This document shows positions 17,809-61,700 of a stretch of DNA of 64,000 nucleotides, piece after piece. Origin of the DNA: Limonium bicolor (lineage: Eukaryota > Streptophyta > Magnoliopsida > Caryophyllales > Plumbaginaceae). The stretch spans positions 252,549,810 through 252,613,809 of the forward strand of contig CM041782.1 of assembly GCA_023374045.1 (NCBI GenBank). The letters are read 5' to 3'. The notes below the pieces were generated by a model that worked only from the letters and a program-made list of their open reading frames with translations, did no database searches and was not told where the DNA came from. The translations under genes were made by a program, and so were the position numbers. The first letter of the stretch is position 1; the number at the start of each line of letters is the position of its first letter.

Positions 17809-17821
17809 AAGGGGGGTAGAT
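17809..17821 (+). promoter_or_regulatory. Polypurine tract of G
   Basis: AAGGGGGGTAGAT directly before the LTR start TGAAATACCCC. Confidence 0.85.
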
Positions 17822-20307: not shown

Positions 20308-21590
20308 GAGTCATACAAAAAAAATGTTTTATTATATGATTATAGTAATCATAGATATGTATATATGCCTATACACATATAAGCATATGTAAGTTGTAAT
20401 ACACCATTAATGAAGTAGTAATGGTAAGAAAATGAGTAGACGAGTAAGGAAACAAATTAAGGGAATTGTAAGTATAAGAACATTAAGTGAAACCGAACCA
20501 ACCGGACAACGGGGTAAGTATGGGAGTAGCAATTATGTATGTAATGTAATGCGTAGTATTGATTGAACCGTTTGGCATGTAGCCGGAGGTTCAAGAATAG
20601 GACTCGAGGAACAAATAAGGACTAAGGAACAAGAAGGCACCGGTAAAGTAAATTGCAGAGGAAGGTATGATTTCTTCATGCCCTGTATCCTAATCTGGTT
20701 ACCCCGATTTGTGTGCTTATTTGATCACCTAATAAGATAAATGCATGAATCGGACTATATTGCACTTACTTGTGCTTGTTTACATTGTTCTTGATATTTG
20801 TCTTGAACAAAAGTTTGTATAATTCATGAAATATATGAATGATGATGAACTGTATTCGAGTCTTGTATTGTACTTAAGTATTGTATTGTATTTCGTATGA
20901 ATGTGTATTGAGCAATGTATTTGTGTATGTGGCCTGGATGTTGACTTCTACTAATTCCTAACTACCTAACTCCTAACTTAAGTGAGTAAATTGGAATGAG
21001 TAGAAGTCCGATATAGCTTCGGCCACGTGTGAGGATGAGGAGACACAAGAGGTTGGATCCGATTCCTGACTCTTAAACTGGTCCGCGGCCCAAACCCCTT
21101 AAATGGGTAGCATCCCGGATTGGTAAGTCAAGTAAATCCCGGTGGTGGGACGGAGTAGTCCCCGGGCGGAGGTCCCGACGACTTAAGATGAGTAAGAGTA
21201 AGTAAGTAAGTATGGATCAGTAAGTATGTATGAGTATGAGTATGTATGTGTAAGTACTATGGAACGAGTAAACGAGTAATCTCCACCCGATTAACCCGGG
21301 TGGACCAACATGAGCTAACAAGGATATGTATTGTGTATGTATTGCGTATGTATTGTATATGTATTGTGTAATGCGGATCCCGGAAAGGTAAGAATGTATC
21401 TGATTGCCTGTATGGGTTACCATGTATGTATTGAAGAGTGTGTAATGACGTGTATGTATTCCTTGCGTAATGTATTGTGATAGTATGTATAAGAGCATGT
21501 ATGCATGTATGTTGAATGAAATCAATCGCATGTATTCGACCAAGTGGTCGGCGTACCCTCACTAGTACACGGGGTATGCGGTTATCATGC

Positions 21591-27218: not shown

Positions 27219-27223
27219 GGGGC
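27219..27223 (+). repeat. Target site duplication of E1, left copy
   Basis: GGGGC, matched exactly by 41320-41324. It lies in the GGGG arm of the F LTR hairpin. Confidence 0.85.
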
Positions 27224-39600: not shown

Positions 39601-41319
39601 TTAAATTGCTTGGCACTTAGGCCCTTAAATAACATGGCTCTTAGGCCCTTAAATTGCATAAACCTTAAGCACTGAATTTCCCACATAAATAATGCCTTTG
39701 ACCTGCAATTACACCCAACAATACATATGCCCTTAATAAACTCCTTGAGAGTATTTCACTAGCTCATTTACCATTGGCTCTTTAGGTAGTTTTAATGAGC
39801 AATATAAGCTCATTTTTCCTTAGGAATAAATTACATTAGGTTAGCACATTTACCTCTTTTCTTCAAGATTTTTACTTGAACACTCTTGTTCTTCCTTGTT
39901 TGGAAATCGGTAAGAGGACATGGTTACTTGTCAATGTTCTAATCAATATACAAGTAACACCAATGAGCATTCAAGCTTCATGCTTAAACTCATTTACAAA
40001 CCCTAGGTTATATATATTGTCTTAACACATTAAGGTAATTGTTTTACCTTGGAATTGGAAGAGAGCTTGAATAAGTATCAAGAGAGGACTCCTCCAAACC
40101 CTTTGCAGATTGCATTGAAGCTTTGGAAGAACAAGAGAAGACACCATTAATGGTGAATTTTCGGACATGTATAAAATGAGAGGAAACTTGGTTTTTCTTT
40201 GAGTTTCCTTACCTTGAAGCAAAGGAGAACAACAAGGTGTGAAAATATTAGCTCAAGCTCCTTCAATGGTGAATCTCCATGGCACCAAAATTGAGTTCTT
40301 GAAGATTTGAAAAGATAGAAGTATGGAGCTTCATCTAACTAAGACAAATATGGTCTTAGAATTTGATTTGGAGCATGGAGTTAGATTTGGCAAGGAAATG
40401 AAGATGGAGAAGAGAGGCTACTATAGCCCATCGTTTTTGAAGAAGATAAGAGAGAATGAAGACCATGTGAAATGAGAAGGAAGATGAGAATGAGAAGGTA
40501 AGTAGCTAGCTTAAGATATTTATTTGCTAAAAGCAAATAGTAACTTGCTTTATCCTTTATGTATTTATTTGATAAGTGCTAGCAAGGGTGGTGACTCACA
40601 CCATGAAAACCGGCCCCCATTTAATAAGAAGGGTGTTTTGGTCTTTGTTGACCAATTAACTTACTTATAATAACATATGTTACAAACTAGCTCATAAACG
40701 TTACTATTCATAAAAACAAGGCACATAGAAGTGAAAGTTTTGATTAACCATTGATATAGACTTCCAAATGTGATTCTTTATAGTACACATTTTAATTAAA
40801 GAGTAATGATGGACATTTAGCCATTCAAAACTCATTTACAAGACAATTTTTCAAAAATGTGCTTTAAGACTCCTTAAAGCACATTTTGTGTTTTAACTTG
40901 TTTTCAAGCTTGGTTTTCTTTGGTAATTGATTTAATATGTTCATTAACATATTTATAAGGTATAGGTATGACCTTTAGGTCTTATCCAAATTTATCCCAA
41001 GCTTAGAGCACATTTTTGCTATTATTGACTTAAAGGTATATTCTTGTGTTTTATTTGGTTTAACTGTCTACCAAGGTTTCCTAAGGGCTTAATTTGCCTT
41101 GTTAAATCATAATTGACTATTATTTAGTCTTGGTAGGTTCTTTGGGTCCTTACCAAGTTCACTCTAAGCTTAAAGCATGTTTTTGGTCAAATTGTATCTT
41201 AGTGCTTTATTGCATTTTACTATGGTTTAAATTGTTCACTGATGTTTCTGAGGCGCTTTTTAGCCTTTACATACCATATTTTAATATTTAAACCACAGAT
41301 CAAGGTTTGGGGTATTTCA
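36680..41319 (-). mobile_element. 5' LTR of E1
   Basis: 4640 bp, from TGAAATACCCC at 41319 to GGGGTGTTACA at 36680. It contains the palindrome array (38571-38897), AG/GTAA motifs on the minus strand and the terminal hairpin (36773-36794). It is followed by the right target duplication. Confidence 0.9.
38571..38897 (-). repeat. Palindrome array in E1 5' LTR
   Basis: Same array as at 4283-4609 and 29049-29375, with a few arm changes (for example ACCATGTAAGTACGG around 38650). Confidence 0.88.
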
Positions 41320-43705: not shown

Positions 43706-44192
43706 TGAAATACCCCAAACCTAAGTATGCTATGTAAACATCAATTTATGATGTAATAAGGCTAAAAAAATGCCTTAGAAACATTGGTAGACAATTTAAA
43801 CCAAGGAAAACACAAGAAAACGCCATAAGGGCAATTTAAGCAAACATGTGCTCTAAGCTTGGAGTGACTTTGATTAGCACCCAAATATCATTATAAGACC
43901 TTATTGACATGCTAATGGACTTGTTAAATCAATTACCAAAGAAGACCAAGCTCAAAAACAAGCTTAAACACAAAATGTGCTTTAAGACTCCTTAAAGCAC
44001 CTTTTTGAGAAATTGTCTTAGAAATGAGTTTTGAGTGGCTAAATGCCCATGATTACACCTTAATCAACATGTGTACTAATTAGTATCACATTTGGAAGCC
44101 TAAATAAATGAGAAACCAAAATTTCACAAATTTGTGCACTAATTTATGAATAGTGGCTAGTTTAGGCTTTAGTCAATAAGTTGGTCATTGGT
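43706..44192 (+). mobile_element. F-type LTR (F2), first part
   Basis: It starts TGAAATACCCCAAACCTAAG and aligns with 23814-24300. It is interrupted by H at 44193 and continues at 58795. TTTATGAATAGT near 44150 matches the TATA region of F. Confidence 0.8.
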
Positions 44193-47100
44193 TGAAATAC
44201 CCCATAATTAAAAATAGTGATTAATAGGATAATGAATAATTTAGAACTTGATTAAGTGTAAATAATCATGAGGGAACAAATCCCGAAGAAAACGGATCCT
44301 TAAAATGGATTAAAAGCACTAATTAACCTTAAAGCGCGTTTTTCGAGGTAACCGGGAAAACATGTCTTTAAGCGGGTCAAACAGACACGTAATAATATTG
44401 GTCAACTAAACAGTCATTAATAAATATTAGTGAAGCTTTAAAACCAATTAAATCAATAAAACGAGAGATTAGTAAAAAAATGTCAAAAACGGGAAGTTGT
44501 GGGGTAGAACCATAAATAACCAAAACTTATGTGTCCACTGTTGAAAATAAAAATGTACATGTGTGTGTGTGTGTGCAGTGGTCCGATTTTTCCCCCCTCA
44601 CACACTCACCTATCTCCTCTATTTACAAAAGACAAAAACAATTAAAAAGCAATAAAGTAACCCCCACCCTCACTTTTACTCTCTCTCCTCTATTTCATTC
44701 TCCTCACTCACGTAGAACTCCCCCTCCTTCTCCTCTCTATTTTTCTTCTTCTCCAACCGGTGGCCATGGAAGTTTGAGAGAACCCACACAAACTCTACAT
44801 TCTCTCTTCTTGTACTCCCTCAAATCTCCTCCAAAAATTACAAAACTTGTACCATTGGAATCCTCTCATCAAGGAGAGTATTTCCCTCTTTCCAAAATTC
44901 GAAAACGAGAACTTTCATCTCCATGGGTATGGAGCATTTGGAGCTTCAAGACCACCACTAGAACCACCTTCTTCTCCTTGTTCTTTTGAGGTAAAAATCT
45001 TCTTGAAACTCCATCTTTTTCTAGCCTTTAAGGGCAAAACGAAATTGGAAACTAAACCCTTGTTATTTTTGTACTCTAGCCGATTTTGGCCTTGTTGGTG
45101 GAGTTGGAATTTTGTTCTTGAGCCACTCCAAGCTTCATTTACACCCTTACAAGGTAATGAGATTCCTAAACCCTAGAATGTGCATTAGAACTCAAATAAT
45201 GTTTAGGGTTAGTTTAGTATTGAAATATGTATGCTGATGGGCTGTAGCCTTGGAGGTTTGATTTGCAAACCGGTGGAGAGAGAGAGAGAGAGAGCAGGAA
45301 GAAGGAAGAAGAAGGAAGGAGGAAAAGAAACTAGAAGGGAGAACAAGGTAATTATACTCATCCTTATGTGGTTTAAGAATGTATAATGTAACAGATTTTT
45401 AGTAGTACAAATTGGTATTGTAAAATGATAGTGTATTAGTAGTGTAATGTGTAAGAGGATATAAATGTTTTAAGCCTTTAAAAGACATTTTAAAACTTAT
45501 CAAAACAGATTAGGAATGAGATGTTAAGTGTAGGAATTTTATGAGTGTTTGGTGTTTGGTATTCGGTTATGAGAGTTTGTATATAATGATTGTGTATAAA
45601 CAGGTGAGATGATCATGTATCTGTGTGAAACAATGTGGTGAGAGTATAGAAATATAGGGGAGGTTATGGCAAAATTTACCTAGGAATAGAACACTTAGTG
45701 TATTAGAAACTTGGTGACTAATAAGTGTTGTAAGAGATTTTGGTTGAGATAGATAGAGGGTAAGTGGGAGAGATAGATAATGTATTCTAAATGCATTAGG
45801 AGTGTTAGAAATGTCAATTGAAGAGGGAGATATAGAAGAGGAGTGTAAATGTCAAAATCCGTAGCATAATGTAGTAAGGGAAGAAACTAGTGCAAGTGTT
45901 GAAATGAAACTTGGAAGATTAGGTGTGTGAATTGGTATAGAAATGTGTAAACAGTTAATGAATGGACTAAGGTGTATTAGGAGGTTTAATTAGTGTCATA
46001 ACATGTGAGAATAAGTGTAGGAACAATGGGGAAGTAATGGGTGAAAAGATAGAACTGAAAACAGAAATAAAAATGCAAATACTGGGCCGGACCGACCTTG
46101 GGACCGGACTTGCGAGGTCGGTCGAGCCCAGATTTACAAAGGACGGAAACCTTCTGGAATGGACCGACCTTGGGAACGGACATGCAAGGTCGGTCGGCCA
46201 AAAGAAATTCCCGTAATGCAACCTACTAGAATGGACCGACCTTGCGACCGGACTTGCAAGGTCGGTCGACTCAAAATTTTTCCGTCTTGTAAGCCACTAG
46301 AATGGACCGACCTTGCGACCGGACTTGCAAGGTCGGTCGGGCTAAAATTCGCCTGTAACGAACCTTACTGGAATGGACCGACCTTGGGACCGGACATGCA
46401 AGGTCGGTCGACTCCAGAATTTCGAAACCAAAACTTACTGGAATGGACCGACATTGGGACCGGACTTGCAAGGTCGGTCGGTCCTGAAATTTTTCAGCGT
46501 AATTCCTTACTGACTTCGACCGACCTTGGGACCGGACATGTAAGGTCGGTCGGGTCTTACAAAAAAAAAATTAATTAAATTAAATAATATATATATATAT
46601 ACCCTTATATACATATGTACATATATGTAAGTATACCAATGTTAAGTAAGGAAAGGAACTTAAAGTAATGAAGAGTAAGCAAGTAATGTGTAAGTGTAAG
46701 AATGGAAAGGACTTAGTAAGTATGACTTAGGAAACGTAAGAGTAATCGAATTAAGCTAAGGATAGTAAAATTAATCACCGAACATATGTATGTTATAGGA
46801 CTTGATTTGTGAGCACCGAAGGAACGTTGGGATACAAGTACAACGGTGAACGGTATGAATTCCTCATGCCCCGTATGCTATCTTGGTTACTGTGATTTGT
46901 GTGTTGTGTGCTAAGTGATCACCAAATAAGATAAATGCACGAATCGGAGTCATCATGCTTACTTGTGAATATGTAGTGTGGTATGTTGTGTATATTCTAC
47001 TTAAATCTTAGTTTGTATAATTCATGAAATGTATGTATGATTATGAATGTGTGTATGTATGATGTATTGCACTGTGACCGAATGTGTTGTGATTGGACTT

Positions 47101-48192
47101 CTATCTAATTCCTAACAAGCTAACCAATCTAACTTAAATTGGTAATTAAATTGGAATGAGTAGAAGTCTGATATAGTTTCGGCCACGCGTGAGGATGAGG
47201 AGACACAAGAGGTTGGATCCGATTCCTGACTCTTAAACTGGTCTGTGGCCCAAATCCCTTAAGTGGGTAGCATCCCGGATTGGTGAGTCAAGTAAATCCC
47301 GGAGGTGGGACGGAGTAGTCCCCAGGGCCGGAGGTCATACCGACTTGACTTGAGTATAAGTAAGTAAGTAAGAATGAGTATGTAAAGTAATTGAAAGTAA
47401 GTAAGCGCAAGTAAGAGAAAGTAAGTGAAATGAGTAAAAGAGTAAACAGCATTCCGATTAACCTGGATGTGTAACTTGGCTAACATCGTGAAGGTAAGTA
47501 TTGTATGCACTATTGTATTGATGCCTTGAATTGTGTAATGTATTGTAAATGCATGTATGTTGTATGTAAAGCATGTATGTATGAAATTAATGAATCGCAT
47601 GTTTAGTGGACGTCAAATAGTCGGCGTGCCCTAGCTAGCACGCGGTATATGTGGAGTTCATACGTAGCTTTTGCTGAGCCCTTAGGGGCGATGTTTTTAC
47701 TACACGCGGGTACAAGAGAAGGATGAAGGCCGTGAAGTGTTGGAGCTTGTTTCTTCTGATTTCTTTTTGATTGTAAACAATGAATTTATGATTGGTGTAC
47801 TAAGTAGTACACGGCTGTAAGTTTTGTTAGCCGGTGTACCATGGGGTACACCTTTTTGGATAGTGGAAGTATTGGATTGGGGTATAGATGAGTAGCTTGT
47901 AGAAAACTCATTCTTTTGGGAAGTTTGAATTGGGATGTAAATGAATACACTTAAATACTCGGTGATCCATTGATGTAAGTATTCGGTATGTGGTATTTTG
48001 GTAAGTAATTTAGTAGCTCGGTACACTATGTTCATCAGACTGTTACTGTAAGTAAGGTAAGCCTAGCTAGCCGTATGGGCGGTTAGCGGCGTTGTACCAC
48101 CCGCCGTAGTAAGTAGTAGTATTCCACTGCTAACTGATAGAATTAAGGGATGATTGGACGGTAAGCACAGGATTAGCGGTAGGGGTGTTACA
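44193..48192 (+). mobile_element. 5' LTR of H
   Basis: 4000 bp, TGAAATACCCCATAATTAAA at the start, GGTAGGGGTGTTACA at the end. It contains GT and GA microsatellites (44562-44574, 45281-45293), CT-rich leader, AG/GTAA motifs near 44990, 45152 and 45347, a seven-unit palindrome array, tandem hairpins (about 47664-47688) and the terminal hairpin (48066-48087). Confidence 0.9.
46090..46551 (+). repeat. Seven-unit palindrome array in H 5' LTR
   Basis: Palindromes start at 46090, 46162, 46234, 46305, 46376, 46446 and 46518. The arms are GACCGACCTTG and CAAGGTCGGTC with few changes. The loops alternate between GGACCGGACTT, CGACCGGACTT and GGACCGGACAT types. Spacers differ from unit to unit but mostly end in GGAATG. 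Confidence 0.92.
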
Positions 48193-48420
48193 AAAAGTGT
48201 TATCAGAGCGTAGTTACGCTCTGATGTCCTTAGTTACCGAGCATAGGGGATTACCGAGTTAGGATTTCAACCGTCTTTAGACGGATACATAGAAACCTAA
48301 CTAGGAACTACCGTTGTTAACAACGGATACCCTTGACGTTCTTAGGAATGATACCTTGTTTAAATTCCAAGACCTTTGAGTCATATCTTGCGGAGCCTAA
48401 TGTAACTGCTAAATGTTCAG
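48193..48420 (+). promoter_or_regulatory. Leader of H with primer site and palindrome
   Basis: TGTTATCAGAGC (48198-48209) is an initiator tRNA-Met primer site with one change from the usual TGGTATCAGAGC. It overlaps a near-perfect palindrome at 48202-48225: arms ATCAGAGCGTA and TACGCTCTGAT, 2-nt centre. The motif TACCGAGTTAGGATTT (48252-48267) is shared with E1. The rest up to the gag ATG holds no other feature that I can name. Confidence 0.75.
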
Positions 48421-49086
48421 ATGTCAGGAAGAGGTCCAGGTCGCCCTAGAGGAGGGGGCAATGACGGACCCGACACGCAGACGATAGCTGAAATCGTCGC
48501 TGCCACGGTAGCGCAGATGCTACCCCAAGTAATCCAAGCTATGCAACAAAACCAGCAAAACCAGCAAACTCAAGCGGGGCCAATCCCTCCCCCTCCACCC
48601 AGAGAAGGTAACTGGGTAAAAGCTGTAGCGGAACTCCACCCTCCTTGCTTTAGGGGCGAGAGTGATCCGGCTAAGCTAGAAGCCTATATCTCCGAGATGG
48701 AGATGGCGTTCGAAACCCTCGAAGCTCCTGCTGGAGTTCCAGTTAGAGTAGCAGCCTACTACTTGAAAGACGTAGCCATGGATTGGTGGAAACTAATCAA
48801 GCATGAGCACGTCAACGACCCCACCTTCGATTGGGAGTCTTTTGCATCACTCCTCCGATCCAAGTACTATCCAGAGCATGTGAAAACCAAGAAGAGCCTA
48901 GAGCTAGACGCCTTGAAAATGACAGACAAGATGTCTATGGATGAGTACTACCGCACCTTTACCTCCATTCTCCGTCTTCTACCGTACCTTGGGTACACCG
49001 GCCAGGTGTTGGTCGATTGCTTCTATGGCGGTCTGAGCCATCGCCTTCGGTACGGTATGGGCTACACTCGATTTACCTCCCTTCAG
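48421..49086 (+). CDS. gag: gag exon 1 of H (capsid)
   Basis: 222 codons from an ATG. The N-terminus is basic and Gly/Pro-rich, with a Gln-rich and a proline stretch (PPPPP) near residues 45-60. The retrotransposon gag domain follows: FRGESDPAKLEAYI, the AAYYLKDVAMDWWK helix region and LRSKYYPEHV, typical of the capsid domain of chromovirus Gag that packages genomic RNA into particles. The frame closes 18 bases into the AG/GTAAAT junction. Splicing after 49086 keeps the gag reading in phase 0 with exon 2. No lesion was seen in this exon. Confidence 0.88.
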
Positions 49087-49209
49087 GTAAATATCGGTTA
49101 ACCCTTAGTACCATTTCAATTCCCTAATTTCCTAAATTTGCTTGAATCCCTTGAATCTCTTCTTTATCCTTTCTTAAATGAGAATCCCGGCTGATACCTG
49201 ACACTTCAG
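49087..49209 (+). other. Putative gag intron 1 (123 bp)
   Basis: It starts CAG/GTAAAT and ends CACTTCAG/GAG. It is T-rich, with CTGAT branch-like motifs near the 3' end and stops in the gag frame. Removing it joins LQ to ECYHAA in phase 0, which gives a continuous Gag-like sequence. A phase-preserving GT-AG segment with plant-like base composition is better explained as an intron than as a random insertion. Confidence 0.7.
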
Positions 49210-49489
49210 GAGTGTTATCACGCAGCTTCTCGCGTCGAAATCACTTGCCAGCTAAGGGATGAAGAAACCGCACTGAAGCACAAGGCTTATAGCAAGAACA
49301 CAAGTGCCGAGGAGCAGAACCAGGGTAAAAGCTGGAAAAAGAAGAAAGGGAAGTTCTTTCATCAAACTCAAAAGAACTTCCCAAGTGAGAGCAGTGCCCA
49401 TGCTGAGCAGGGCAAACCAGTTGAGCTGCTTCAACTAGGTTCATCTGCACCAGTGGCCGCAAAGCCACTGAGATCACACCCACCAAAGG
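49210..49489 (+). CDS. gag: gag exon 2 of H
   Basis: 93 codons plus one base. It begins ECYHAASRVEI, the usual end of the gag capsid domain, followed by a Lys-rich stretch (SWKKKKGKFF) and a low-complexity Ser/Ala/Pro linker. It ends in phase 1 at CCAAAGG/GTAAAC. Confidence 0.75.
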
Positions 49490-49574
49490 GTAAACTTCTA
49501 TTCCTAAATCGTATTCTTACAAGTATCATATCTAGTATATCCATGCACACATGTGCTAACCCTCTAAACCTCAG
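49490..49574 (+). other. Putative gag intron 2 (85 bp)
   Basis: It starts GTAAAC and ends ACCTCAG. A strong branch-like TGCTAAC lies about 20 bases before the acceptor. Joining 49489 to 49575 restores a Gly codon and keeps frame into the zinc knuckles. Confidence 0.7.
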
Positions 49575-49919
49575 GTTCTGGCTCCGGTTTCACCAAAACC
49601 TTCTCAGATGGCCGCAGCTATGTGTGCAGAAAGTGCAACCAGGACCATCCCGGTAAAGACTGCTATGGGAGAGAAATCAAATGCTACAACTGCCAGAAAC
49701 CAGGACACACGGCCAATAGATGTCCAGAAAATGCTAAGTAAAAAGGGAACTTTCAAAGCTACAAGCAGAGGGAAGGCAAGGAGGTTGAATCTGGCGATGC
49801 ACCGACCCAGCAGGCACCACAGGGACAGGGATCCCGGGGACCTCAGAGGGGTGCACCTCAGAGGCAGCCTGTCCTTCATGTGATTGACCGTGATGGGTCC
49901 GGTTCTAAATCCGGCCAAG
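49575..49919 (+). pseudogene. gag: gag exon 3 of H: two zinc knuckles and C-terminal tail
   Basis: It encodes two CCHC knuckles of the nucleocapsid, C-X2-C-X3-H-X4-C (residues 333-345 of the spliced protein) and C-X2-C-X4-H-X4-C (352-365), which bind genomic RNA. An in-frame TAA (49739-49741, codon 371) follows directly. The same frame stays open for 59 more codons of Gln/Gly/Arg-rich tail ending SGSKSGQ, so the stop is probably a later lesion. The exon ends in phase 1 at CCAAG/GTAATT, a strong plant donor. With exons 1 and 2 it totals 430 codons. Confidence 0.72.
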
Positions 49920-50074
49920 GTAATTACTCTAACCTTTAATCCTTGGACTAGCATGACTAAGTAGTAGAGTAACTGTTTGAATGAATGCATGAGTAAATAA
50001 AATGAAGTGTGTATTAAGCATGAAAAGAAGTAGTTGATACTAGTACTCACCGTAGATGAAATTTGTAACCATAG
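49920..50074 (+). other. Putative intron 3, gag to AlkB
   Basis: It starts GTAATT and ends GTAACCATAG. Joining 49919 to 50075 makes a Gly codon and puts gag in frame with AlkB. Other AG sites (50055 and upstream) do not keep the phase. The AlkB ATG at 50056 would fall inside this intron, so translation from that ATG is the alternative. Confidence 0.5.
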
Positions 50075-50814
50075 GAAGCCTTAGTATCTGTTATCCGATA
50101 CCGGTAAACCTGAATCAAGAGGAGACCGACATCACCAACCACTACTACACCAACAAACAGTGTCAGGTCATCCGACCAGGTATGATCTTATTAAGGGGAT
50201 ACCTGACACCCGAAGCGCAAATCTCAATCATCCGACGATGCAACGAGCTAAGAACGGGTCAAGGTGGATTTTACACACCCGAATTCCCCGGTGGAGCGAA
50301 GATGAAACTGAAAATGATGTGCTTGGGAAAGGACTGGAATCCTTATACCAAGATATACCAGGAGACACGAACACAAGATGGAACGACGCCACCGACAATA
50401 CCTCCAGAGTTTCGGACACTTGTCACAAAATCAGTTGAACTTGCACAACAATGTGAACATGAACCGATCCCCGCACTTGAAGCGGACCTCTGTATCGTCA
50501 ACTTCTATGAGAAAGAAGGACGACTTGGGTTACACCAAGACAAGGACGAGACAGCGGAATCTCTTGAAAAAGGAGTGCCCGTAGTGTCTTAGTCCATTGG
50601 TGATGACGCCGTATTCCTGTATAGCGAGCAGAAGCGCGTGGACCTCGCACAGAAATTGGTATTGAGATCAGGAGATGTCCTAATCATGGGTGGAAACTCT
50701 AGGATGCTGTATCACGGGATCAACAAGATCAAACTGAATACGGCACCACCGGCAATAATCAATGCCACACACATGAAACCAGGACGTCTGAACCTTACCT
50801 TTAGAAAGTATTAA
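50056..50814 (+). pseudogene. AlkB-type Fe(II)/2-oxoglutarate dioxygenase captured by H
   Basis: 252 codons plus stop, with one in-frame TAG at codon 179 (50590-50592). The family removes methyl or other alkyl groups from nucleic acid bases by oxidation, using Fe(II) and 2-oxoglutarate. The iron ligands H160 and D162 (LHQDKDE) and H220 (YHGI) are present, as is the 2-oxoglutarate-binding R-X5-R (R244 to R250, RLNLTFR). The upstream region has the RPGMILLRGYL start, a GGFYTPEF segment, MMCLGKDW and VNFYEKEG, all typical of plant ALKBH1-class proteins. It covers the whole catalytic domain without introns, which suggests capture as cDNA. It lies between the gag zinc knuckles and protease and can be joined in phase to gag. 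Without the TAG the domain would be complete. Target base and substrate cannot be told from sequence. Confidence 0.88.
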
Positions 50815-50955
50815 ATTTATAGTATCGTGTAATCTATTAGTAACGTGTATTAGAGACACGGTATGTATGATGGTTGGTTTATCAATAAAGAGCAGTGTTG
50901 ATTTAAATTCCACTTGTGTCCACCATCAATACTTATCCACTTGTGAATCCAATAG
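50815..50955 (+). other. AlkB-protease junction with AATAAA and putative acceptor
   Basis: After the AlkB stop, the sequence holds AATAAA (50884-50889), a possible poly(A) signal, then a CT-containing stretch ending CCAATAG (50955). An acceptor there, joined to the donor at 49919, makes GGT and continues into the protease frame. The protease frame opens only after a TAA at 50904-50906 and has no ATG near its start. Confidence 0.5.
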
Positions 50956-51971
50956 GTTGTGGACTCGGTACTGAAGGTAACCTGGGTATCCTCACCGAAG
51001 CACAAGCCGGCAGAAGCGACACCATCTTAACGGGAACATTCCCAGTAAATGTCATTGATGCCAATGTGTTATTCGACTCCGGCGCCTCTCACACCTTCGT
51101 ATCACCATCTTTCGTGAAGAGGTTGAAGCTAGATGCGGATGAGCTACCGAATTTTGTGGTTACTCTCCCATCGAAGGAGCGAGTGAAGTGGACCAAATAT
51201 TATCAATCAGCCACCATCGAAATCAAAAACGAAACGTTTCCCATTTCCTTCATCGAATTCAACGGATTGGGATTCGACTTAATCATCAGAATGAATTGGT
51301 TGGAGCGGCACAAGGGTAGAATCCTCTGCGCCGAGCACCGATTGCTGCTCAAGAGTCCTTCTGGGGTTACTGTATCTTACCGCCAGAGACCGAGAGAGCC
51401 TTCGACCACATTCATATCTGCCATGGCTATGTACCGGGAGCTTAGAAAGGGCCAAGAAGTGTATTTGTGTTATGTACAAGACCTGGAGAGAGATCCAGAG
51501 TTCAGCGAAGTTGTACCCATCGTATCCGAATTTCATGATGTATTCCCTAAGGAGCTACCCGGCATGCCACCACTAAGAGCAGTGGAATTTGAAATTGATC
51601 TTTTGCCAGGTACCGGTCCCATTGCTAGGGCACCGTACCGCATGGCACCTGCTGAAATGACTAAACTGAAGGAGCAGTTACGCGACTTACTCGACAAAGG
51701 GTTTATACGCCCGAGCGTATCACCGTGGGGAGCACCGGTTCTCTTCGTGAAGAAGAAGGACGGTAGTCTCCGACTTTGCATTGATTACCGCGAGCTGAAT
51801 GCGGTCACAGTCAAAAATAAATACCCATTGCCACGCATCGACGACTTATTTGATCAGCTGAAAGGAGCCTCAGTCTTCTCCAAGATCGACCTCCGTTCTG
51901 GGTATCATCAGATTGCTATTAAAGAGCGAGACATCGAGAAAACGGCATTCCGTACTAGATATGGCCACTAA
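50907..51971 (+). pseudogene. pol: pol of H: protease and N-terminal half of reverse transcriptase
   Basis: An open frame of about 355 codons without an ATG at its start. The aspartic protease active site is [12 protein letters not shown] (DSGA). RT follows with the FPKELPG linker, [35 protein letters not shown] and [11 protein letters not shown], then [12 protein letters not shown]. The frame ends at a TAA (51969-51971) that replaces an aromatic residue expected before EFTVMPFGL. The missing start codon suggests that Pol is made by splicing or recoding from gag. Confidence 0.88.
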
Positions 51972-52293
51972 GAATTCACAGTGATGCCATTCGGTTTGTC
52001 AAATGCACCAGCTAAATTCATGGATCTCATGAATCGACTATTCAGTGAGCAGTTGGACACTTCGTTGTTGTCTTCATCGACGATATTCTGGTATATTCCA
52101 AATCATCAGAGGAACATGAAACTCATTTAAGGAAAGTGCTTGAGACACTACGCGAGAACCAGCTGTATGCGAAGTTCTCCAAATGCGAGTTCTGGCTGGA
52201 TCAGGTATCATTCCTTGGTCATGTCATCTCGAGCGCAGGTATCTCAGTTGACCCTTCTAAGATTGAAGCTGTACGATCATGGCCTAGACTGTT
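51972..52293 (+). pseudogene. pol: pol of H: RT palm region, frameshifted
   Basis: It continues with [13 protein letters not shown] in the protease frame, then loses one base near 52058-52060. The catalytic [13 protein letters not shown] (FIDD form of the YXDD motif) is in another frame from 52061. It is followed by [16 protein letters not shown] and FLGHVIS, the RT thumb region, up to a second frameshift near 52292. Confidence 0.85.
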
Positions 52294-52780
52294 ACCGACA
52301 TCCGGAGCTTTCTTGGTCTAGCCGGTTACTACCGGAGATTTGTAAAGGACTTCTCGAAAGTCACTAAGCCCATGACTACAATGATGAAGAAAGATGCACC
52401 GTTTGTATGGACGGACGAGTGCGAGTTATCATTTCAGAAACTAAAAGACTCATTGACCTCAGCGCCCATCCTTACTCTTCCAGAGGGCACAGAGGGATTT
52501 GAGGTATATTATGATGCATCAGGCAAGGGAATGGGATGTGTACTCATGCAGCATGGCAAGGTTGTAGCTTATGCCTCCCCGCCAGCTGAAAAAGCATGAG
52601 GAGAATTACCCGACACACGATTTAGAGTTAGGAGCCATTCTCTTCACCTTGAAGATATGACGACACTATCTCTATGGGGTAAGCATCACCATCTACTCCG
52701 ACCACAAGAGCTTACAGTATGTATTCACACAGAAAGAACTGAATCTGAGACAGAGAAGATGGATGGAATTTCTTTCAACT
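52294..52780 (+). pseudogene. pol: pol of H: RT-RNase H region, broken
   Basis: It resumes with [17 protein letters not shown] and runs through the RNase H start EVYYDASGKGMGCVL (first catalytic Asp present). A frameshift in a CCCC run near 52579 and a TGA (52658-52660), where a Trp is usual, interrupt it. [19 protein letters not shown] is recognisable in the new frame. A further frameshift lies near 52780. Confidence 0.85.
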
Positions 52781-53337
52781 ATGACATCGACCTGCAATAT
52801 AAGGAAGGGAAGGCAAACATTGTAGCCGGCGCCCTGAGTCGTCGAGCACACTCGCTCCAATCGCTACTCGCTTCTTCTAGCTTGGTTGACGAGGTGCGAG
52901 ACGCTCAGTTGAGCGACCCTTACCTAACCAAAATCAGACAAAAGATTGAGAATGGTACATTTGAGAAGAAGAAGTATGATTTTAAGCTACATGAAGATGG
53001 TTTGATTCGGTTGAATGGCAGACTATGCGTCCCCCGAAGCAATGCTGAGCTAAGGGATCGCATCCTGCGAGAGTCACACAGTTCCACATTGTCAGTCCAT
53101 CCAGGAGCCTCCAAGATGTTCAAAGACATGAAGAGGTACTTCTGGTGGTCTGGAATGAAGTCGGATGTGACGGAATTTGTATTGAGATGCTTAACATGCC
53201 AAAAGGTGAAATTTGAACATCGTAGACCGGGCGGAATGGTACAATCGATGCCAGTTCCGGAGTGGAAATTTCATGATATCTCCATGGATTTTGTTGTTGG
53301 ACTCCCACCTGCTAGGGGAGGACTCAACATGATCTAG
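52781..53337 (+). pseudogene. pol: pol of H: end of RNase H, integrase zinc finger and core start
   Basis: It begins [12 protein letters not shown] and then has VAGALSRR, where the usual form is ADALSRR, so an acidic residue is lost. The integrase HHCC finger follows (H-X6-H in SHSSTLSVH, then CLTC). The core begins with MDFV, which holds the first catalytic Asp of integrase. A TAG at 53335-53337 ends the frame at a position where Trp is common. Confidence 0.85.
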
Positions 53338-54327
53338 GTTGTAGTCGATCACCTTACCAAGGTTGCCAGATTCATACCAATGAAGGACACCTGGAAGGTA
53401 GTGAAGCTCGCAGAGCTATTCGACAAGGAGATTATCAGACATCACGGAGTCCCTAAAATAATAGTATCTGACCGTGACACCAGATTTCTTTCGAGATACT
53501 GGAGAGCTACACGGGAAGCGTTGGGTACAAAATTGAAGTTGAGTACCGCCTTCCATCCTCAGACCGAAGGTCAGACAGAAAGGACCATCCAGACACTGGA
53601 GGACATGCTTCGGGCATGTGCCTTAGATTTTCAGGGGAGTTGGTTAGACAAGCTTCACCTTATCGAATTTTCTTACAATAATAGCTATCATGCTTCGATT
53701 AAGATGTCGCCTTTCCAAGCCCTATACGGTAGACCTTGCCGTACACCCTTGTGTTGGGATGAGTCAAGCGAAGCGGTCATCATAGGACCGGAGTACCTTG
53801 AGCAAGTACAAGCTGAAGTGCAGCAGATTCGAGCTAATATGAAGGCAGCCCAAGATAGACAGAAATCCTATACGGATGTGAGACGACGCGACCTTGAGTT
53901 CGCCGTAGGCGACCAAGTGTTCTTGCGCGTTTCACCTATGAAGGGTGTCTTCCGTTTTGGTCAGAAGGGCAAACTAAGCCCAAAGTTTGTAGGGCCGTAC
54001 ACTATCACCGAAAGAGTTGGATCCGTAGCCTACAGGTTAGCATTACCTGAGGACTTGGGACGTGTCCATGATGTATTTCATGTGTCACAACTCAAGAAGT
54101 ATATTGCCGATCCTTCTCATGTGCTAGAGCCTGAGAGACTATCCATCGAACCGACCATGAGATATGTTGAAACCCCAGTGAGAATCCTTGATAGGAAGAC
54201 CAGAGACACTCGCCATAAGTCTATACGAATGGTGAAGGTCCTATGGTCAAACCATGATGTCGAAGAAGCGACATGGGAGTTGGAAGATGCCATGAAGGCT
54301 AAGTACCCACAGCTTTTCATAGACTAG
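53338..54327 (+). pseudogene. pol: pol of H: integrase core, GPY/F module and chromodomain
   Basis: About 329 codons open from VVVDHLTK to the stop. SDRDTRF has the second catalytic Asp and GQTERTIQTLEDML the catalytic Glu. Next come FSYNNSYHASIKMSPFQALYG, the KLSPKFVGPYTI GPY/F module and VFHVSQLKKY. The C-terminus (VRILDRKTR to EATWELED) is a chromodomain of the kind that directs chromoviruses to marked heterochromatin. It is the best preserved part of pol, with no lesion after 53337. Confidence 0.9.
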
Positions 54328-54349
54328 AGAGTCTAGCATTTGGTAATAC

Positions 54350-54385
54350 GGGTACGGGTTGTACCCCTTTTGAGGGGGGTAGAGC
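54350..54385 (+). promoter_or_regulatory. Hairpin plus second polypurine-like tract of H
   Basis: GGGTAC (54350-54355) and GTACCC (54361-54366) pair around GGGTT. CCTTTTGAGGGGGGTAGAGC follows. The element lies about 25-60 bases after the integrase stop and 400 bases before the true polypurine tract. G, F and E1 have the same arrangement with compensating arm changes. Confidence 0.6.
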
Positions 54386-54767
54386 CCTTTTGCTTTTGCA
54401 TTGCTTCGGGGTAAGCATTGCATAGTGTGTAGGTATTGTAATAGACTTTTGTATGGCACATGTAGTGCAAGTGAATTTGGTACGTGAATGTATGTATGTG
54501 TAAGGTGTAGTGTATGGATGTGCATGTACGATGTGTGATGTATGTGTATTGTGAATTGCAGTAATGTATTGTGTATTGTGTGATGGCATGAATGAGAAAT
54601 GATGGATTGTGTATGTGAATTGTGTATGGTACTTGAATGGTGTATGCTTGCAAGGTGAAAGGAAGTAAACACCTCATAGGTGGTAGTAAGATGCATTACG
54701 ACAAATGGTTGCCCAATGAGTAGAAGTATTAAACTATTAACCTTGAGCAACTTTGAGGTCAAAGTTT
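54386..54767 (+). other. Non-coding 3' internal region of H
   Basis: It is rich in TGTATG/GTGTAT runs. GCATTGCTTCGGGGTAAGC near 54398 resembles G at about 17572 (GCATTGCTTTGGGGATAGC). No gene was found. Confidence 0.6.
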
Positions 54768-54783
54768 CTTAAGGGGGGTAGAT
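54768..54783 (+). promoter_or_regulatory. Polypurine tract of H
   Basis: CTTAAGGGGGGTAGAT directly before the 3' LTR. Confidence 0.88.
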
Positions 54784-57700
54784 TGAAATACCCCGTAATT
54801 AAAAATAGTGATTAATTAGGCTAATGAATAATTTAGAAGCTTGATTAAGTGTAAATAATCATGAGGGAACAAATCCCGAAGAAAACGGATCCTTAAAATG
54901 GATTAAAAGCACTAACGAACCTTAAAGCGCGTTTTTCGAGGTAACCGGGAAAACGTGTCTTTAAGCGGGTCAAATAGACTCATAATAATTGGTCAACTAA
55001 ACGGTCATTAATAAATATTAGTGAAGCTTTAGAACCAATAAAATCAATAAAACGAGAGATTAGTAAAAAAACTGTCAAAAACGCGAAGTTATAGGGTTGA
55101 ACCATAAATAACCAAAACTTATGTGTCCACTGTAGAAAATAAAAATGTACATGTATGTGTGTGTGTGTGTGCAGTGGTCCAATTTCCCCCCCCCCCCCCT
55201 CACACACTCACCTATTTCCTCTATTTACAAAAGACAAAAATAATTAAAAAGCAATAAAGTAACCCTCACCCTCACTTTACTCTCTCTCCGCTATTTCATT
55301 CTCCACACTCACGTAGAACTCCCCCTCCTTCTCCTCTCTATTTTTCTTCTTCTCCAACCGGTGGCCATGGAAGTTTGAGAGAACCCACACAAACTCTACA
55401 TTCTCTCTTCTTGTACTCCCTCAAATCTCCTCCAAAAATTACAAAACTTGTACCATTGGAATCCTCTCATCAAGGAGAGTATTTCCCTCTTTCCAAAATT
55501 CAAAAACAAGAACTTTCATCTCCATGGGTATGGAGCACTTAGAGCTTCAAGACCACCACAAGAACCACCTTCTTCTCCTTGTTCTTTTGAGGTAAAAATC
55601 TTCTTGAAACTCCATCTTTTTCTGGCCTTTCAGGGCAAAACGAAATTGGAAACTAAACCCTTGTTTTTTTTGTACTCTAGCCGATTTTGGCCGTGTTGGT
55701 GGAGTTGGAATTTTGTTCTTGAGCCACTCCAAGCTTCATTTACACCCTTACAAGGTAATGAGATTCCTAAACCCTAGAATGTGCATTAGAACTCAAATAA
55801 TGTTTAGGGTTAGTTTAGTATTGAAATATGTATATGGATGGGCTGTAGCCTTGGAGGTTTGATTTGCAAACCGGTGGAGAGAGAGAGAGAGAGAAGGAAG
55901 AAGGAAGAAGAAGGAAGGAGGAAAAGAAACTAGAAGGGAGAACAAGGTAATTATACTCATCCTTATGTGGTTTAGTAATGTATAATGTAACAGATTTTTT
56001 GTAGTACAAATTGGTATTGTAAAATGATAGTGTATTAGTAGTGTAATGTGTAAGAGGATATAAATGTTTTAAGCCTTTAAAAGACATTTTAAAACTTATC
56101 AAAACAGATTGGGAATGAGATGTTAAGTGCAGAAATTTTATGAGTGTTTTGTGTTTGGTATTCGGTAATGAGAGTTTGTATATTATGATTGTGTATAAAC
56201 AGGTGAGATGATCATGTATGTGTGTGAAACAATATGGTGAGAGTATAGAAATATAGGGGAGGTTATGGCAAAATTTACCTAGGAATGGAACACTTAGTGT
56301 ATTATAAACTAGGTGACTAATAAGTGTTGTAAGAGATTTTGGTTGAGATAGATAGAGGGTAGGTGGGAGAGATAGATAATGTATTCTAAATGCATTAGGA
56401 GTGTTAGAAATGTCAATAGAAGAGGGAGATATAGAAGAGGAGTGTAAATGTCAAAATCCGTAGCATAATGTAGTAAGGGAAGAAACTAGTGCAAGTGTTG
56501 AAATGAAACTTGGAAGATTAGGTGTGTGAATTGGTATAGAAATGTGTAAACAGTTAATGAATGGACTAAGGTGTATTAGGAGGTTTAATTAGTGTCATAA
56601 CATGTGGGAATAAGTGTAGGAACAATGGGGAAGTAATGGGTGAAAAGATAGAACTGAAAACAGAAATAAAAATGCAAATACTGGGCCGGACCGACCTTGG
56701 GACCGGACTTGCGAGGTCGGTCGAGCCCAGATTTACAAAGGACGGAAACCTTCTGGAATGGACCGACCTTGGGACCGGACATGCAAGGTCGGTCGGCCAG
56801 AAGAAATTCCTGTAATGCAACCTACTGGAATGGACCGACCTTGCGACCGGACTTGCAAGGTCGGTCGACTCAAAATTTTTCCGTCTTGTAAGCTACTGGA
56901 ATGGACTGACCTTGCGACCGGACTTGCAAGGTCGGTCAGGCTAAAATTCGCCTATAACGAAACTTACTGGAATGGACCGACCTTGGGACCGGACATGCAA
57001 GGTCGGTCGACTCCAGAATTTCGAAACCAAAACTTACTGGAATGGACCGACCTTGGGACCGGACTTGCAAGGTCGGTCGGCCCTGAAATTTTTCAGCGTA
57101 ATTCCTTTCTTACTTCGACCGACCTTGGGACCGGACTTGTAAGGTCGGTCGGGTCTTACAAAAAAAAATTAATTAAATTAAATAATTTATATATATATGT
57201 ATACCCTTATATACATATGTACATATATGTAAGTATACCAATGTTAAGTAAGGAAAGGAACTTAAAGTAATGAAGAGTAAGCATGTAATGTGTAAGTGTA
57301 AGAATGGAAAGGACTTAGTAAGTATGACTTAGGAAACGTAAGAGTAATCGAATTAAGCTAAGGATAGTAAAATTAATCACCAAACATATGTATGTTATAG
57401 GACTTGATTTGTGAGCACCGAAGGAACGTTGGGATACAAGTACAACGGTGAACGGTATGAATTCCTCATGCCCCGTATGCTATCTTGGTTACTCTGATTT
57501 GTGTGTTGTGTGCTAATTGATTACCAAATAAGATAAATGCACGAATCAGAGTCATCATGCTTACTTGTGAATATGTAGTGTGGTATGTTGTGTATATTCT
57601 CCTTAAATCTTAGTTTGTATAATTCATGAAATGTATGTATGATTATGTATGTGTGTATGTATGATGTATTGCATTGTGACCGAATGTGTTGTGATTGGAC

Positions 57701-58794
57701 TTCTATATAATTCCTAACAAGGTAACAATTCTAACTTAAATTGGTAATTAAATTGGAATGAGTAGAAGTCCGATATAGTTTCGGCCACGCGTGAGGATGA
57801 GGAGACACAAGAGGTTGGATCCGATTCCTGACTCTTAAATTGGTCCGCGGCCCAAATCCCTTAAGTGGGTACCATCCCGGATTGGTGAGTCAAGTAAATC
57901 CCGGAGGTGGGACGGAGTAGTCCCCAGGGCCGGAGGTCATACCGACTTGACTTGAGTATAAGTAATTAAGTAAGAATGAGTAAGTAAAGTAATTGAAAGT
58001 AAGTAAGCACAAGTAAGAGAAAGTAAGTGAAATGAGTAAAAGAGTAAACAGCATTCCGATTAACCCGGATGCGTAACTTGGCTAACATCGTGAAGTTAAG
58101 TATTGTATGCACTATTGTATTGATTCCTTGAATTGTGTAATGTATTGTAAATGCATGTATGTTGTATGTAAAGCATGTATGTATGAAATTAATGAATCGC
58201 ATGTTTAGTGGACGTCAAATAGTCGGCGTGCCCTAGCTAGCACGCGGTATATGCGGAGTTCATGCGCAGCTTTTGCTGAGCCCCTAGGGGCGATGTTTTT
58301 ACTACACGTGGGTACAAGAGAAGGATGAAGTCCGTGAAGTGTTGGAGCTTTTTTCTTCTAATTTCTTTTTGATTGTAAACAATGAATTGATGATTGGTGT
58401 ACTAAGTAGTACACGGCTGTAAGTTTTGTTAGCCGGTGTACCATGGGGTACACCTTTTTGGATAGTGGAAGTATTGGATTGGGGTATAGATAAGTAGCTT
58501 GTAGAAAACTCATTCTTTTGGGAAGTTTGAATTGGGATGTAAATGAATACACTTAAATACTCGGTGATCCATTGATGTAAGTATTCGGTATGTGGTATTT
58601 TGGTAAGTAATTTAGTAGCTCGGTACACTATCTTCATCAAACCGTTACTGTAAGTAAGGTAAGCCTAGCTAGCCGTTTGGGCGGTTAGCGGCGTTGCACC
58701 ACCTGCCGTAGTAAGTAGTAGTATTCCGCTGCGAACTGATAGAATTAAGGGATGATTGGACGGTAAGCACAGGATTAGCGGTAGGGGTGTTACA
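54784..58794 (+). mobile_element. 3' LTR of H
   Basis: 4011 bp, aligned throughout with 44193-48192. Differences include a longer C run (55186-55198) and scattered substitutions. It contains the seven-unit palindrome array (56689-57150), tandem hairpins (58267-58290) and the terminal hairpin (58668-58689). Confidence 0.9.
56689..57150 (+). repeat. Seven-unit palindrome array in H 3' LTR
   Basis: Same unit number and order as 46090-46551. One unit has changes in both arms (GACTGACC and GGTCGGTCAG, about 56904-56939), which keeps the pairing. Confidence 0.9.
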
Positions 58795-61700
58795 ACCAAG
58801 ACCATAAATATCCTATCTACTAAGGGGGGACGGTTTTAAGTGTGGTGAGTCACCATAGGGAGCCAGCAACTAAAGGAAAAGAAGAGGAAATGAGAGAATA
58901 GAACTATTTGCTTTAAAAGACAAAATATCTTCTTATACCTTCTCGCTCTCCTCTCTTCTTCATTTCTCTTATTCCCTACCGTATTATCCTCCTTCCTCCT
59001 GCTCCAAACACGTGGGTGCTGCCTTCATTCATGCTCCATCTTCATTTGTCCACCAAATGTACATTTTAGCTCCAAATAAAAAACTAAGCATAGATTTCTC
59101 TTAGTTGGAGCAAGACCTTCCCTTCTATCTTTTCAAATCCTTCAAAGCTCCATTTCGGTGCCATGAAAAAACTCCATTGATGGAGGAAAATCAAGTTTGA
59201 AGAGCCCATTAGCTTCTCCAATCATTCAAGGTAAGGAAAATGTAAGAAAAACTAAGTTTCCACCACTTTCCCATCATAACCGAAAATCATCTTCTCATGG
59301 GACCTTGTTTTATCCCTTTTCTAGCTTGATTCCATTCTCCAAAGACTTGAGGAGGTCTTGCCTTGCTTCATTACTAAAGTCATTCCAAAATTCAAAGGTA
59401 AATATTCATTTTAATACCTAAAAACACATTTTTAACCTAAGATTGAATTCTAGGAGTTTAGGCATGTCGCTTAATACTCATTAGATTATTTGAATGTGGG
59501 TTAGAACATTGGCAAGAGGATTGAAGTCCTTGCCGAAATTCAATCAAGAAAACCAAAGGAGGGAAGTAAGAGAAGCTTGAGAAAAATAAGGTAAATTGCT
59601 TACCTAATGGTGGTTTAGGTTTTAAGGGATGAGATTTAGATAAGTACTAATGTAGCTTAAAACTTACATTATGTAATGGGTTATATAACCTAGGAAAAAG
59701 AATTTAAACAAGCTTATGATCTTGTAACTAATGAGCCAATGGGAATGAGTTAGTAAGATAAGTATAAGGTGAATGATGAGAACACTTATATTGCTATGGG
59801 AGCATTGTTGTGTGTATTTGCAGGTTGAAAGATTTTATATGTGCAAAATTCAGTGTTTAAGTTTAAGTCATTTAAGGGCCTAAGAGGCATGTCATTTAAG
59901 AGCCTTAGTGCTATGTGATTCAAGATTATTGCACTATAGTGAATTTGTTGTGAATGAGTATATTTGGGTAAGAAAATATGATGAGAAAGGATTTGATTTG
60001 TGTGAGATGATTGTATGAGAAAAACTATGCATTTGGGCATGATAATACAAAAGAGGAGCTGTGGCGAAATTTGAGTAGAAAACAAAGTGTTTAGTGGTGG
60101 TTGTGAATTGATATGACCTAGGATTTACTAGGAGTCATTAAAAAGGAATTTGAGTGGAAATGAGTTAACTAAGGAGTTATTGAGGTTTAGAATGGCCTAG
60201 AGTTGTCTACGAGGAATTAGAAGTTAGGTGGGTGTATTAAACACACCAAAGGCATGGTATGAGGAATGTTGAAACTTGTGCAAAAATCTGTAGGAAATGG
60301 TGTATAGTACTTTAAGATGATTTAGGTATGAACTAGAGAATAAAACGAGGAGAATTTCGGGTAGCTTGTGTAAGTGGGGAAGATGCTAGTGGTGGATTAA
60401 TAAGGTTCTAGTTTTGATGGTAATGAGTGGACTTGGGTGATGGAAGGGAAAATTGTAAGAGAATGTTGTAAATTGTCATGGAAAATAACTAGGAATGTAT
60501 AAGAGTGTATGATCATGAGAAAGGTGAGTAAATTGAGTAAAAGAGGTGGAAATGTCTAAGGAGGGTGTAGCATGGTCAATGTAAATGAAGAACAATGTTA
60601 AGGTATTAAAAGGATGGCTAGTGATGCTTAAGTATGTTCAAGTTTTAGTAGTGATGAGTAACAAATGGAAAGGAGAGAAAATTGTGCATGGAGATGCAAG
60701 ATAACTTTGGAAAGTTTAGCAAAGGAAAGATGGATGAATAATGATGTTTGAGGAGTAGTTATATTGGTTGTGGATGAACACTTTGGTTAGTTGAGGTCTT
60801 AGGCAAAATCTACATGATGGAAGTGTAAGAAACCAGGCATAAGTGTTAGGAGTTTTTGTAAGAAATTGGGTGAAAGATCAAGAAATTTAGTATGAGTTTG
60901 ATGGATGAATTAAGAGGGTTTTAAGGTGCTAAAATGATGTTAAAACATGCTAGAATATATATGGAGAGGTTAGGAAAAGATTGGATGAGAATTGAGGTTG
61001 AAAAGAGGTCAAAAATCATTGTTCTGGACACATTTAGTGTTGGTCCGGGTTTGTAAACATGTACACAAACCCAGACCACACTAAAAACATGGCAGAGGGT
61101 TATGTCCGTGGATGGTCCGGGTTTACAACCTCGGACACAAACCCGGACCACTCTAAAAAGGATCCAGAAAGTTTAAAATGGGGTTTTAAGGTTGGGACTT
61201 GTTTGGTAATGATATTAAAGATTGTTAGGACATAATTAATGACATATAATGGTCATTAGAGGCATAAACAAGCTTAAGAAATAATGAGAAGTAAATGACT
61301 TATGAGATTAAGCTTAAACTACAATGACTTAGTGGCGTTTAGTTGGAAATCAATAGTAATTAAGTAAGCGAGGTTAATTAAAAGTAATTAACCACCCAAT
61401 TCGATGAATGTTTTAGGGTTTAAGAATATGGACTCTGGAGGAGAGTAAGCAACCGAACGACCAACGGTGTACGGTATGGTTTTCTTGTGACCTGCTTGCT
61501 AACGAGGTGTCCCTCGGCTTGGGTGCTAATTGTTTATGTATGCCGACTAAACAAGATAAAGCATGCAACAGGATTATTAAGTTTGTTGTGTGAATGTGAT
61601 GCTCTAACACAACTTACCTTGGGAGCTTACTAACTAATGTGTTAGTAAACAATGGTGTGAGATTAAGAAACACTCCCAAATATTGTTTTCTTAGTAACTG

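Follow-up and report, generated by a model that had tools for sequence, protein, structure and literature searches.

The closest described system is Gypsy_Pa_2799 of the orchid Phalaenopsis (Alvarado-Marchena et al. 2022, PMC9289625), a Tat/Ogre element of 25.5 kb with a tRNA-Arg primer site. Its AlkB domain lies at the C terminus of a separate open reading frame (ORF2) of 565 amino acids (aa), belongs to the ALKBH5/9B/10B class and is called recent, and the protein demethylates N6-methyladenosine (m6A) in vitro. The same paper screened 121 plant genomes and reports the AlkB domain in no other; it also names AlkB domains in plant RNA viruses of the Alphaflexiviridae, Betaflexiviridae and Closteroviridae. 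Here we analyse a 64-kb stretch of Limonium bicolor DNA (GCA_023374045.1, contig CM041782.1, 252,549,810-252,613,809 of the forward strand), which we call the window and in whose positions all coordinates are given. At 44193-58794 it holds a long terminal repeat (LTR) element of 14.6 kb, whose two LTRs enclose an AlkB frame that follows the zinc knuckles of gag and precedes the protease.

This AlkB is a family trait and not a one-off insertion, since it is retained in four subfamilies, namely W (that of the window copy), A, B and C, and it is under purifying selection. We suggest that an old chromovirus-like Ty3/gypsy lineage acquired an ALKBH1-type dioxygenase from its host and has maintained it as a functional gene. 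A single transcript would be spliced in two ways from one donor at the end of gag, acceptor a giving Gag-AlkB and acceptor b giving Gag-Pol. The Gag part, with the zinc knuckles that are its RNA-binding part, would bring AlkB into the virus-like particle beside the genomic RNA, the cDNA and the primer tRNA, and there the packaged enzyme would remove methyl groups that hinder replication or are read by host silencing. The splicing, the packaging of the fusion, the enzyme activity and the substrate are what we infer and not what we observed; taken as a whole, from the captured gene to the enzyme carried into the particle, we regard this reading as probable on balance.

The AlkB domain, its class and its possible task

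The first-pass annotation of this DNA had described a complete AlkB catalytic domain, colinear with the element and interrupted by one stop in 252 codons, and all of this is confirmed. The stretch 50056-50814 translates into 252 residues, interrupted by a single TAG at 50590-50592, and both halves match PF13532 above the curated cut-off of 31.2 bits (1.5e-20, 74.7 bits; 3.3e-18, 67.1 bits), while two intact copies reach 169.4 and 168.6 bits. H160-x-D162 and H220 for the iron, as well as R244 and R250 for 2-oxoglutarate, are present and aligned with their plant ALKBH1-type counterparts, following the HxD...H and RxxxxxR motifs as given in PMC9289625.

Among the AlkB classes, plant ALKBH1 is the nearest to the element AlkB by sequence and by predicted fold; the first-pass annotation had found it more like plant ALKBH1-class proteins than like viral ones. 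The best solved relative of the first piece (178 aa) is rice OsALKBH1 (5xeg, 3.7e-43), followed by E. coli AlkB at 7e-7. A Foldseek search with the AlphaFold model of copy L003 (pLDDT 89.3) placed OsALKBH1 at the top (5xoi and 5xeg, 49-50% identity, TMq 0.80-0.82). Lower down came E. coli AlkB at about 30% identity; human ALKBH1 first appeared at rank 26 with about 20%, and ALKBH5 at rank 46 with 17%. Among the best 120 of 1735 homologues the named relatives are plant proteins, several of them annotated as ALKBH1C/1D or as DNA N(6)-methyladenine demethylase; four proteins (P0002, P0003, P0004 and P0006) are 58-71% identical and the remainder at most 56%.

We built two midpoint-rooted trees, both confined to element and cellular ALKBH1 rows: one of 179 rows (13 element, 166 cellular; P0122 excluded for a doubled domain piece) and one of 51 rows, in which 17 element rows were joined by 34 cellular ones (every fifth). 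In both, the element AlkBs and the same four proteins formed one side of a branch (support 99 and 100/100, respectively). The stem of this branch measures 0.88 and 1.02; long-branch effects may play a part, and the first tree was flagged for long branches meeting. With the midpoint root, nesting of the element AlkBs among the 166 or 34 cellular rows was not seen. In the second tree P0003 and subfamily C diverge before P0006 and before a group that unites P0002 and P0004 with A, B and W, which suggests that the AlkB-bearing family may live in other plants too.

Two other origins were considered and set aside: a viral one, as no relative was found in IMG/VR viral contigs at the reach of our searches, and a prokaryote source, as none was found in genome contigs with the 178-aa query. 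Among 107 annotated proteins of 497-1582 aa that combine AlkB with a retroelement part, none belongs to the element clade, because none exceeds 52% identity. One database protein, P0258 of Cinnamomum micranthum (584 aa), joins an annotated retrotransposon gag to a cellular-type ALKBH1; it seems to be a merger of gene models or another gag-AlkB neighbourhood, unrelated to this family. The excluded P0122 of Artemisia annua (478 aa) is ALKBH1-like, with its AlkB domain piece doubled.

As to the task of the enzyme, our best guess is that it would strip methyl groups from RNA, cDNA or primer tRNA of the element itself. An alternative, which would leave the anatomy unchanged and which we consider somewhat unlikely, is that the main task is on DNA or tRNA and not on m6A in RNA, that is, on N6-methyladenine (6mA) or 1-methyladenine/3-methylcytosine in single-stranded cDNA, or on the initiator Met tRNA primer. 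The primer site looks initiator Met-like, and ALKBH5, the class of the orchid gene, appears far down the fold ranking; however, the human ALKBH1 structures rank low as well. The nearest class, ALKBH1, is tied to 6mA in single-stranded or unpaired DNA, rice included, and acts on DNA and RNA substrates in man (PMC10469495), and a title cited in that paper links ALKBH1 to tRNA demethylation. In Arabidopsis, ALKBH9B, a demethylase, releases ONSEN RNA from stress granules and permits its mobilisation (PMC12786077, PMC9289625).

Copies in the genome and predicted splice signals at the end of gag

The genome searched, that of the window, comprises 2.92 Gb in 2686 contigs. Out of 38325 first-look candidates for PF13532 the 150 best-scoring copies were scored, a sample that favours intact copies because it holds only the best; each of the 150 matches covered the full length, and 149 of them were free of stops. 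Twenty of these, spread down the list, were taken with their context, 16 belonging to subfamily A and 4 to B. AlkB preceded the pol match in all 20 (here and in the sample below, pol matches were used for the position of pol alone), the gag tail was readable in all of them, and a capsid, gag-exon-2 or knuckle match lay upstream in 17 (none in L017, L018 and L027). Integrase followed downstream in 19, L027 being rearranged, and a stop in or before the AlkB domain was found in two (L017, L020).

A second search used the window integrase and was thus blind to AlkB. Here 126 of 99623 candidates were scored, all 97-100% identical to the window and therefore of a single subfamily (W), and about every sixth row was read (n=20). 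AlkB stood between knuckles and protease at an unchanged offset in 18 of the 20, and seven of these 18 keep an unbroken frame between acceptor a and the stop (L036, L038, L042, L045-L048). The exceptions were L037, with an unrelated repeat at the AlkB offset, and L041, with a different gag, Athila-like in appearance. The stretch in L037 matches a long repeat in the first 41 kb of the window at 90-91%.

Subfamily C came from a third search with a cellular query, oil-palm ALKBH1D, in which 117 of 47067 candidates were scored (53-58% identical to the query). The five read were all element copies of this fourth subfamily, and this query did not bring up the ALKBH1 gene of the host itself. In C the AlkB is 57-60% alike to W and B in amino acids and the protease about 50%, and AlkB stands again between knuckles (found in four of the five) and protease (five of five). 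At G000:C1:497439466-497470353 four AlkB matches follow each other on one strand, 10121, 10043 and 10097 bases apart, which looks like a head-to-tail array of elements or of parts of them.

All features of the window element are on the forward strand. The predicted common donor (CAAG|GTAATT, 49920-49925), found by comparative alignment, leaves one base (phase 1), and two predicted AG acceptors, a at 50073-50074 and b at 50954-50955, both continue in frame. Joined to acceptor a, gag would lead into the AlkB exon (50075-50814) and end at its stop (TAA, 50812-50814); joined to acceptor b, it would lead into the protease and skip AlkB. Without splicing, the gag frame stops a few codons beyond the donor. 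The donor GT was kept in 19 of 20 A/B copies (deleted in L017), 18/18 W copies and all 4 readable C copies (L049 being unreadable), acceptor a in 20/20, 18/18 and 5/5, and acceptor b in 20/20, 17/18 (lost in L029) and 4/5 (lost in L052). Phase 1 was found in 18 of the 19 A/B copies with a donor, L022 being frameshifted. In the intron around these sites, W, A and B agree at just 23 of 90 and 22 of 85 sites, yet the three subfamilies share GTA, both AGs and a branch-point-like TACTTA (50930-50935) about 20 bases before acceptor b.

The gag itself appears to be split as well. Exon 1, with the capsid (PF03732, 5.1e-13), occupies 48421-49086 and is followed by a predicted GT...AG intron (49087-49209), exon 2 (49210-49489, from translation and alignment), a candidate second intron (49490-49574), whose acceptor is not confidently aligned in subfamily A, and exon 3 (49575-49919), in whose translation two zinc knuckles were read by eye. 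In an alignment of 17 A, B and W copies and the window, donor and acceptor of intron 1 were kept in all 18 sequences; the donor of intron 2 was lost in L019. In the four C copies that reach it (L050-L053) intron 1 is missing exactly at the predicted junction, and the frame runs through at a Q-E codon pair, which argues that the junction is a true exon border. The difference between A/B/W and C may be an intron gain, or a loss via reverse transcription of spliced RNA.

The AlkB had been annotated as a gene of its own starting at the ATG 50056-50058, and on both points we read it otherwise. An ICYP/FDIC motif is common to the element AlkB and cellular ALKBH1, and acceptor a sits just upstream of it. 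The first ATG of the open AlkB frame comes only past this conserved stretch, at residue 34 in most A copies and at residue 82 or later in B, and none of the five C frames has an ATG before the corresponding motif. ATG 50056 itself, which is upstream of the conserved acceptor a, is present in the window and in 16 of 18 W copies, with a frameshift following in some; it is changed in L040 and L045, although the frame of L045 is intact. Thus, translation probably does not begin at ATG 50056, and the exon likely spans 50075-50814; with donor, acceptors and phase conserved, AlkB is probably an alternative 3' exon of gag rather than a stand-alone ORF. Alternatively, AlkB might be translated on its own, starting at an internal ATG or further downstream, from RNA that is unspliced or spliced in some other way, and might act in trans on element or host RNA, as has been proposed for the orchid ORF2. 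This reading could draw on the ATG kept in most W copies and on the separate ORF2 of the orchid element (PMC9289625), but the late ATGs of A and B and the altered ATG of L045 make it unlikely.

Selection, decay and the remaining alternatives

The ratio of nonsynonymous to synonymous substitution (dN/dS) was calculated by the pooled Nei-Gojobori method, with bootstrap ranges, on 245 codons of the AlkB-blind copies and the window (19 W copies). It was 0.189 (0.119-0.297) for AlkB and 0.151 (0.068-0.296) for the protease stretch, and the shifted-frame controls on the AlkB DNA gave 1.27 and 1.65. The seven intact W copies alone gave 0.204, and the 12 others, window included, 0.191. Between subfamilies (26 sequences) the AlkB dN/dS was 0.140-0.180 with dS of 1.2-1.7. 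W and A are alike at 77, 87 and 56% of codon positions 1, 2 and 3, respectively; C is alike to the other subfamilies at 32-37% of third positions, which are fully saturated. Fourteen sequences drawn from all four subfamilies align over 741 nt, beginning with the conserved motif and ending with the stop, those of A and B being trimmed so as to start at the motif. Some other copies, e.g. L020, have small length changes in AlkB.

Seven sequences (three A, three B and the window) were compared domain by domain. Between subfamilies the amino acid identity was 68-71% for AlkB, 68-70% for the protease and 83-89% for reverse transcriptase (RT) and integrase, and gag was less conserved than AlkB (capsid 58-60%, gag exon 2 30-46%). 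We had also considered a mosaic element, and dropped it with the protease in frame and 68-70%, and RT 83-89%, alike between subfamilies.

Several points weigh against the captured, spliced and packaged enzyme that we favour. AlkB is broken in 11 of the 18 AlkB-blind copies, and by our own count a stop lies inside 28 of the 117 matches of the cellular query. Acceptor a lacks a strong pyrimidine tract, and it is sequence comparison that points to alternative splicing, Gag-AlkB or Gag-Pol. The presence of a Gag part is no proof of packaging. Moreover, since plant ALKBH1 is tied to 6mA in unpaired DNA (PMC10469495), a role on RNA is not given.

Two further explanations can be confronted with these data. 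AlkB sits between one donor and the protease acceptor, so the stretch might be a mere intron filler whose stop parts Gag from Pol, the enzyme being irrelevant; we consider this very unlikely, as AlkB is under purifying selection while the non-coding sequence on either side of it within that intron agrees at no more than 31-50% of sites between subfamilies. A chance transduction of a host gene piece, carried as a dead passenger, would suit the stop of the window copy and the 11 broken copies but is scarcely credible, with dN/dS at 0.19 and above 1 in shifted frames, the frame intact in four subfamilies that agree at 32-56% of their third codon positions, and dS above 1, which leaves no room for recent common ancestry. 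The dead one-off insertion that the first-pass annotation itself had allowed for, in case sister copies lacked the insert or evolved at dN/dS near 1, is ruled out in the same way by the 150 full-length matches, the 18 of 20 AlkB-blind copies and this low ratio.

The host element and its comparison with known systems

The 5' LTR (44193-48192, TG...CA, 4000 bp) and the 3' LTR (54784-58794, 4011 bp) differ by a Kimura two-parameter distance of 0.0286 (112 changes over 3994 sites), which at rates of 1.3e-8 and 7e-9 corresponds to an age of about 1-2 million years. Downstream of AlkB, pol (50956-54327) carries the protease (PF08284, 4.3e-26), RT (PF00078) and pieces of integrase found by profile search, with a weak chromodomain match (PF00385, E 1.2e-4, 22.3 bits, below the cut-off of 25.1) at the integrase C terminus. 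A polypurine tract, CTTAAGGGGGGTAGAT, was read at 54768-54783. With the LTR pair, PF03732 and PF08284 found, the annotated placement of AlkB inside an LTR element, gag knuckles upstream and protease downstream, is borne out.

The domain order gag-protease-RT-integrase is that of Ty3/gypsy chromoviruses. The region after the 5' LTR, GTGTTATCAGAGC (48193-48217), looks complementary to the 3' end of the initiator Met tRNA; its core, TATCAGAGC, appears Met-like. Most chromoviruses use a Met tRNA primer site and non-chromoviruses do not (PMC6317226). We describe the host element as a chromovirus-like Ty3/gypsy element.

The window copy is decayed: TAG 50590-50592 in AlkB and TAA 49739-49741 in gag, both private to it (in none of 18 aligned sister copies), interrupt the frames, and pol is spread over several frames. 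No direct target-site repeat was found at the element ends (44188-44192 against 58795-58799); the flanks there, TTGGT and ACCAA, are mutual reverse complements. Each LTR contains a tandem array of 71-72 bp units (46089-46552, with about 6.5 units counted, and 56688-57152), every unit bearing the palindrome CCGACCTTG...CAAGGTCGG. Similar units occur in other repeats of the window (about 19976-20324, 4309-4617, 29075-29383 and 38597-38905), and at 17788-21226 a related LTR is represented by diverged stretches in unchanged orientation, 77-90% identical. Much of the first 41 kb is occupied by repeats of 2.4-8.9 kb, 97-98.5% identical to each other (1-11429, 24850-36152 and 36680-41319).

In its most specific form our proposal is that these elements take the demethylase they encode into their particles as a fusion, Gag-AlkB, made by splicing, which would erase marks on genomic RNA, cDNA or the Met-tRNA primer inside the particle, independently of the orchid elements, and that the lineage has kept the gene until third positions were saturated. 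This is tentative, and we give it nearly as much credence as doubt. If true, it would be a particle-borne, self-directed counter to nucleic-acid methylation.

Gypsy_Pa_2799 resembles this element in being a plant Ty3/gypsy LTR element with an intact, amplified AlkB-family gene and all cofactor residues (PMC9289625). However, the element described here is chromovirus-like, measures 14.6 kb and has a primer site that looks Met-like. Its AlkB lies between gag knuckles and protease, apparently spliced to gag, instead of standing apart as an ORF2 next to one continuous gag-pol ORF, and it is old and of the ALKBH1 class, whereas the orchid gene is ALKBH5-type and recent. With class, lineage and position all different, this looks like a second, independent capture. 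The earlier remark, made without a search, that its author knew of no described element with such a layout stands for lineage, layout and AlkB class, but AlkB in a Ty3/gypsy element was already published for Phalaenopsis (PMC9289625). No further case of an AlkB-bearing retroelement appeared among the titles and abstracts listed from the open-licence PMC literature. Two plant Ty3/gypsy lineages appear to retain AlkB, of different classes, and this convergence argues that base methylation limits the replication of plant retrotransposons. The AlkBs of plant RNA viruses are likewise borne by parasites (PMC9289625); in our case the named relatives are plant proteins, among the matches listed.

The betaretroviral nucleocapsid-dUTPase (NC-dUTPase) offers an analogy from animal retroviruses, with a different enzyme. 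In mouse mammary tumour virus (MMTV) and Mason-Pfizer monkey virus (MPMV) a nucleic-acid hygiene enzyme also lies in the protease reading frame; there dUTPase occurs in the virion fused to nucleocapsid, and the title of one cited paper speaks of a transframe protein (PMC8961515). Regarding splicing, we set two known arrangements beside the one predicted here. NC-dUTPase is made by frameshifting, not splicing. The Ogre polyprotein comes from partly spliced RNA (Neumann 2003, Steinbauerova 2008, via PMC6317226 and PMC12786077), and extra ORFs occur in most elements of the non-chromovirus OTA group (PMC6317226). Ogre and this element would thus share a spliced polyprotein RNA in plant Ty3/gypsy elements, predicted in our case, while here the introns lie inside gag and between gag and protease, the latter containing AlkB. 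This would place an intron-bearing, chromovirus-like lineage beside Ogre, in which splicing could balance Gag, Gag-AlkB and Gag-Pol.
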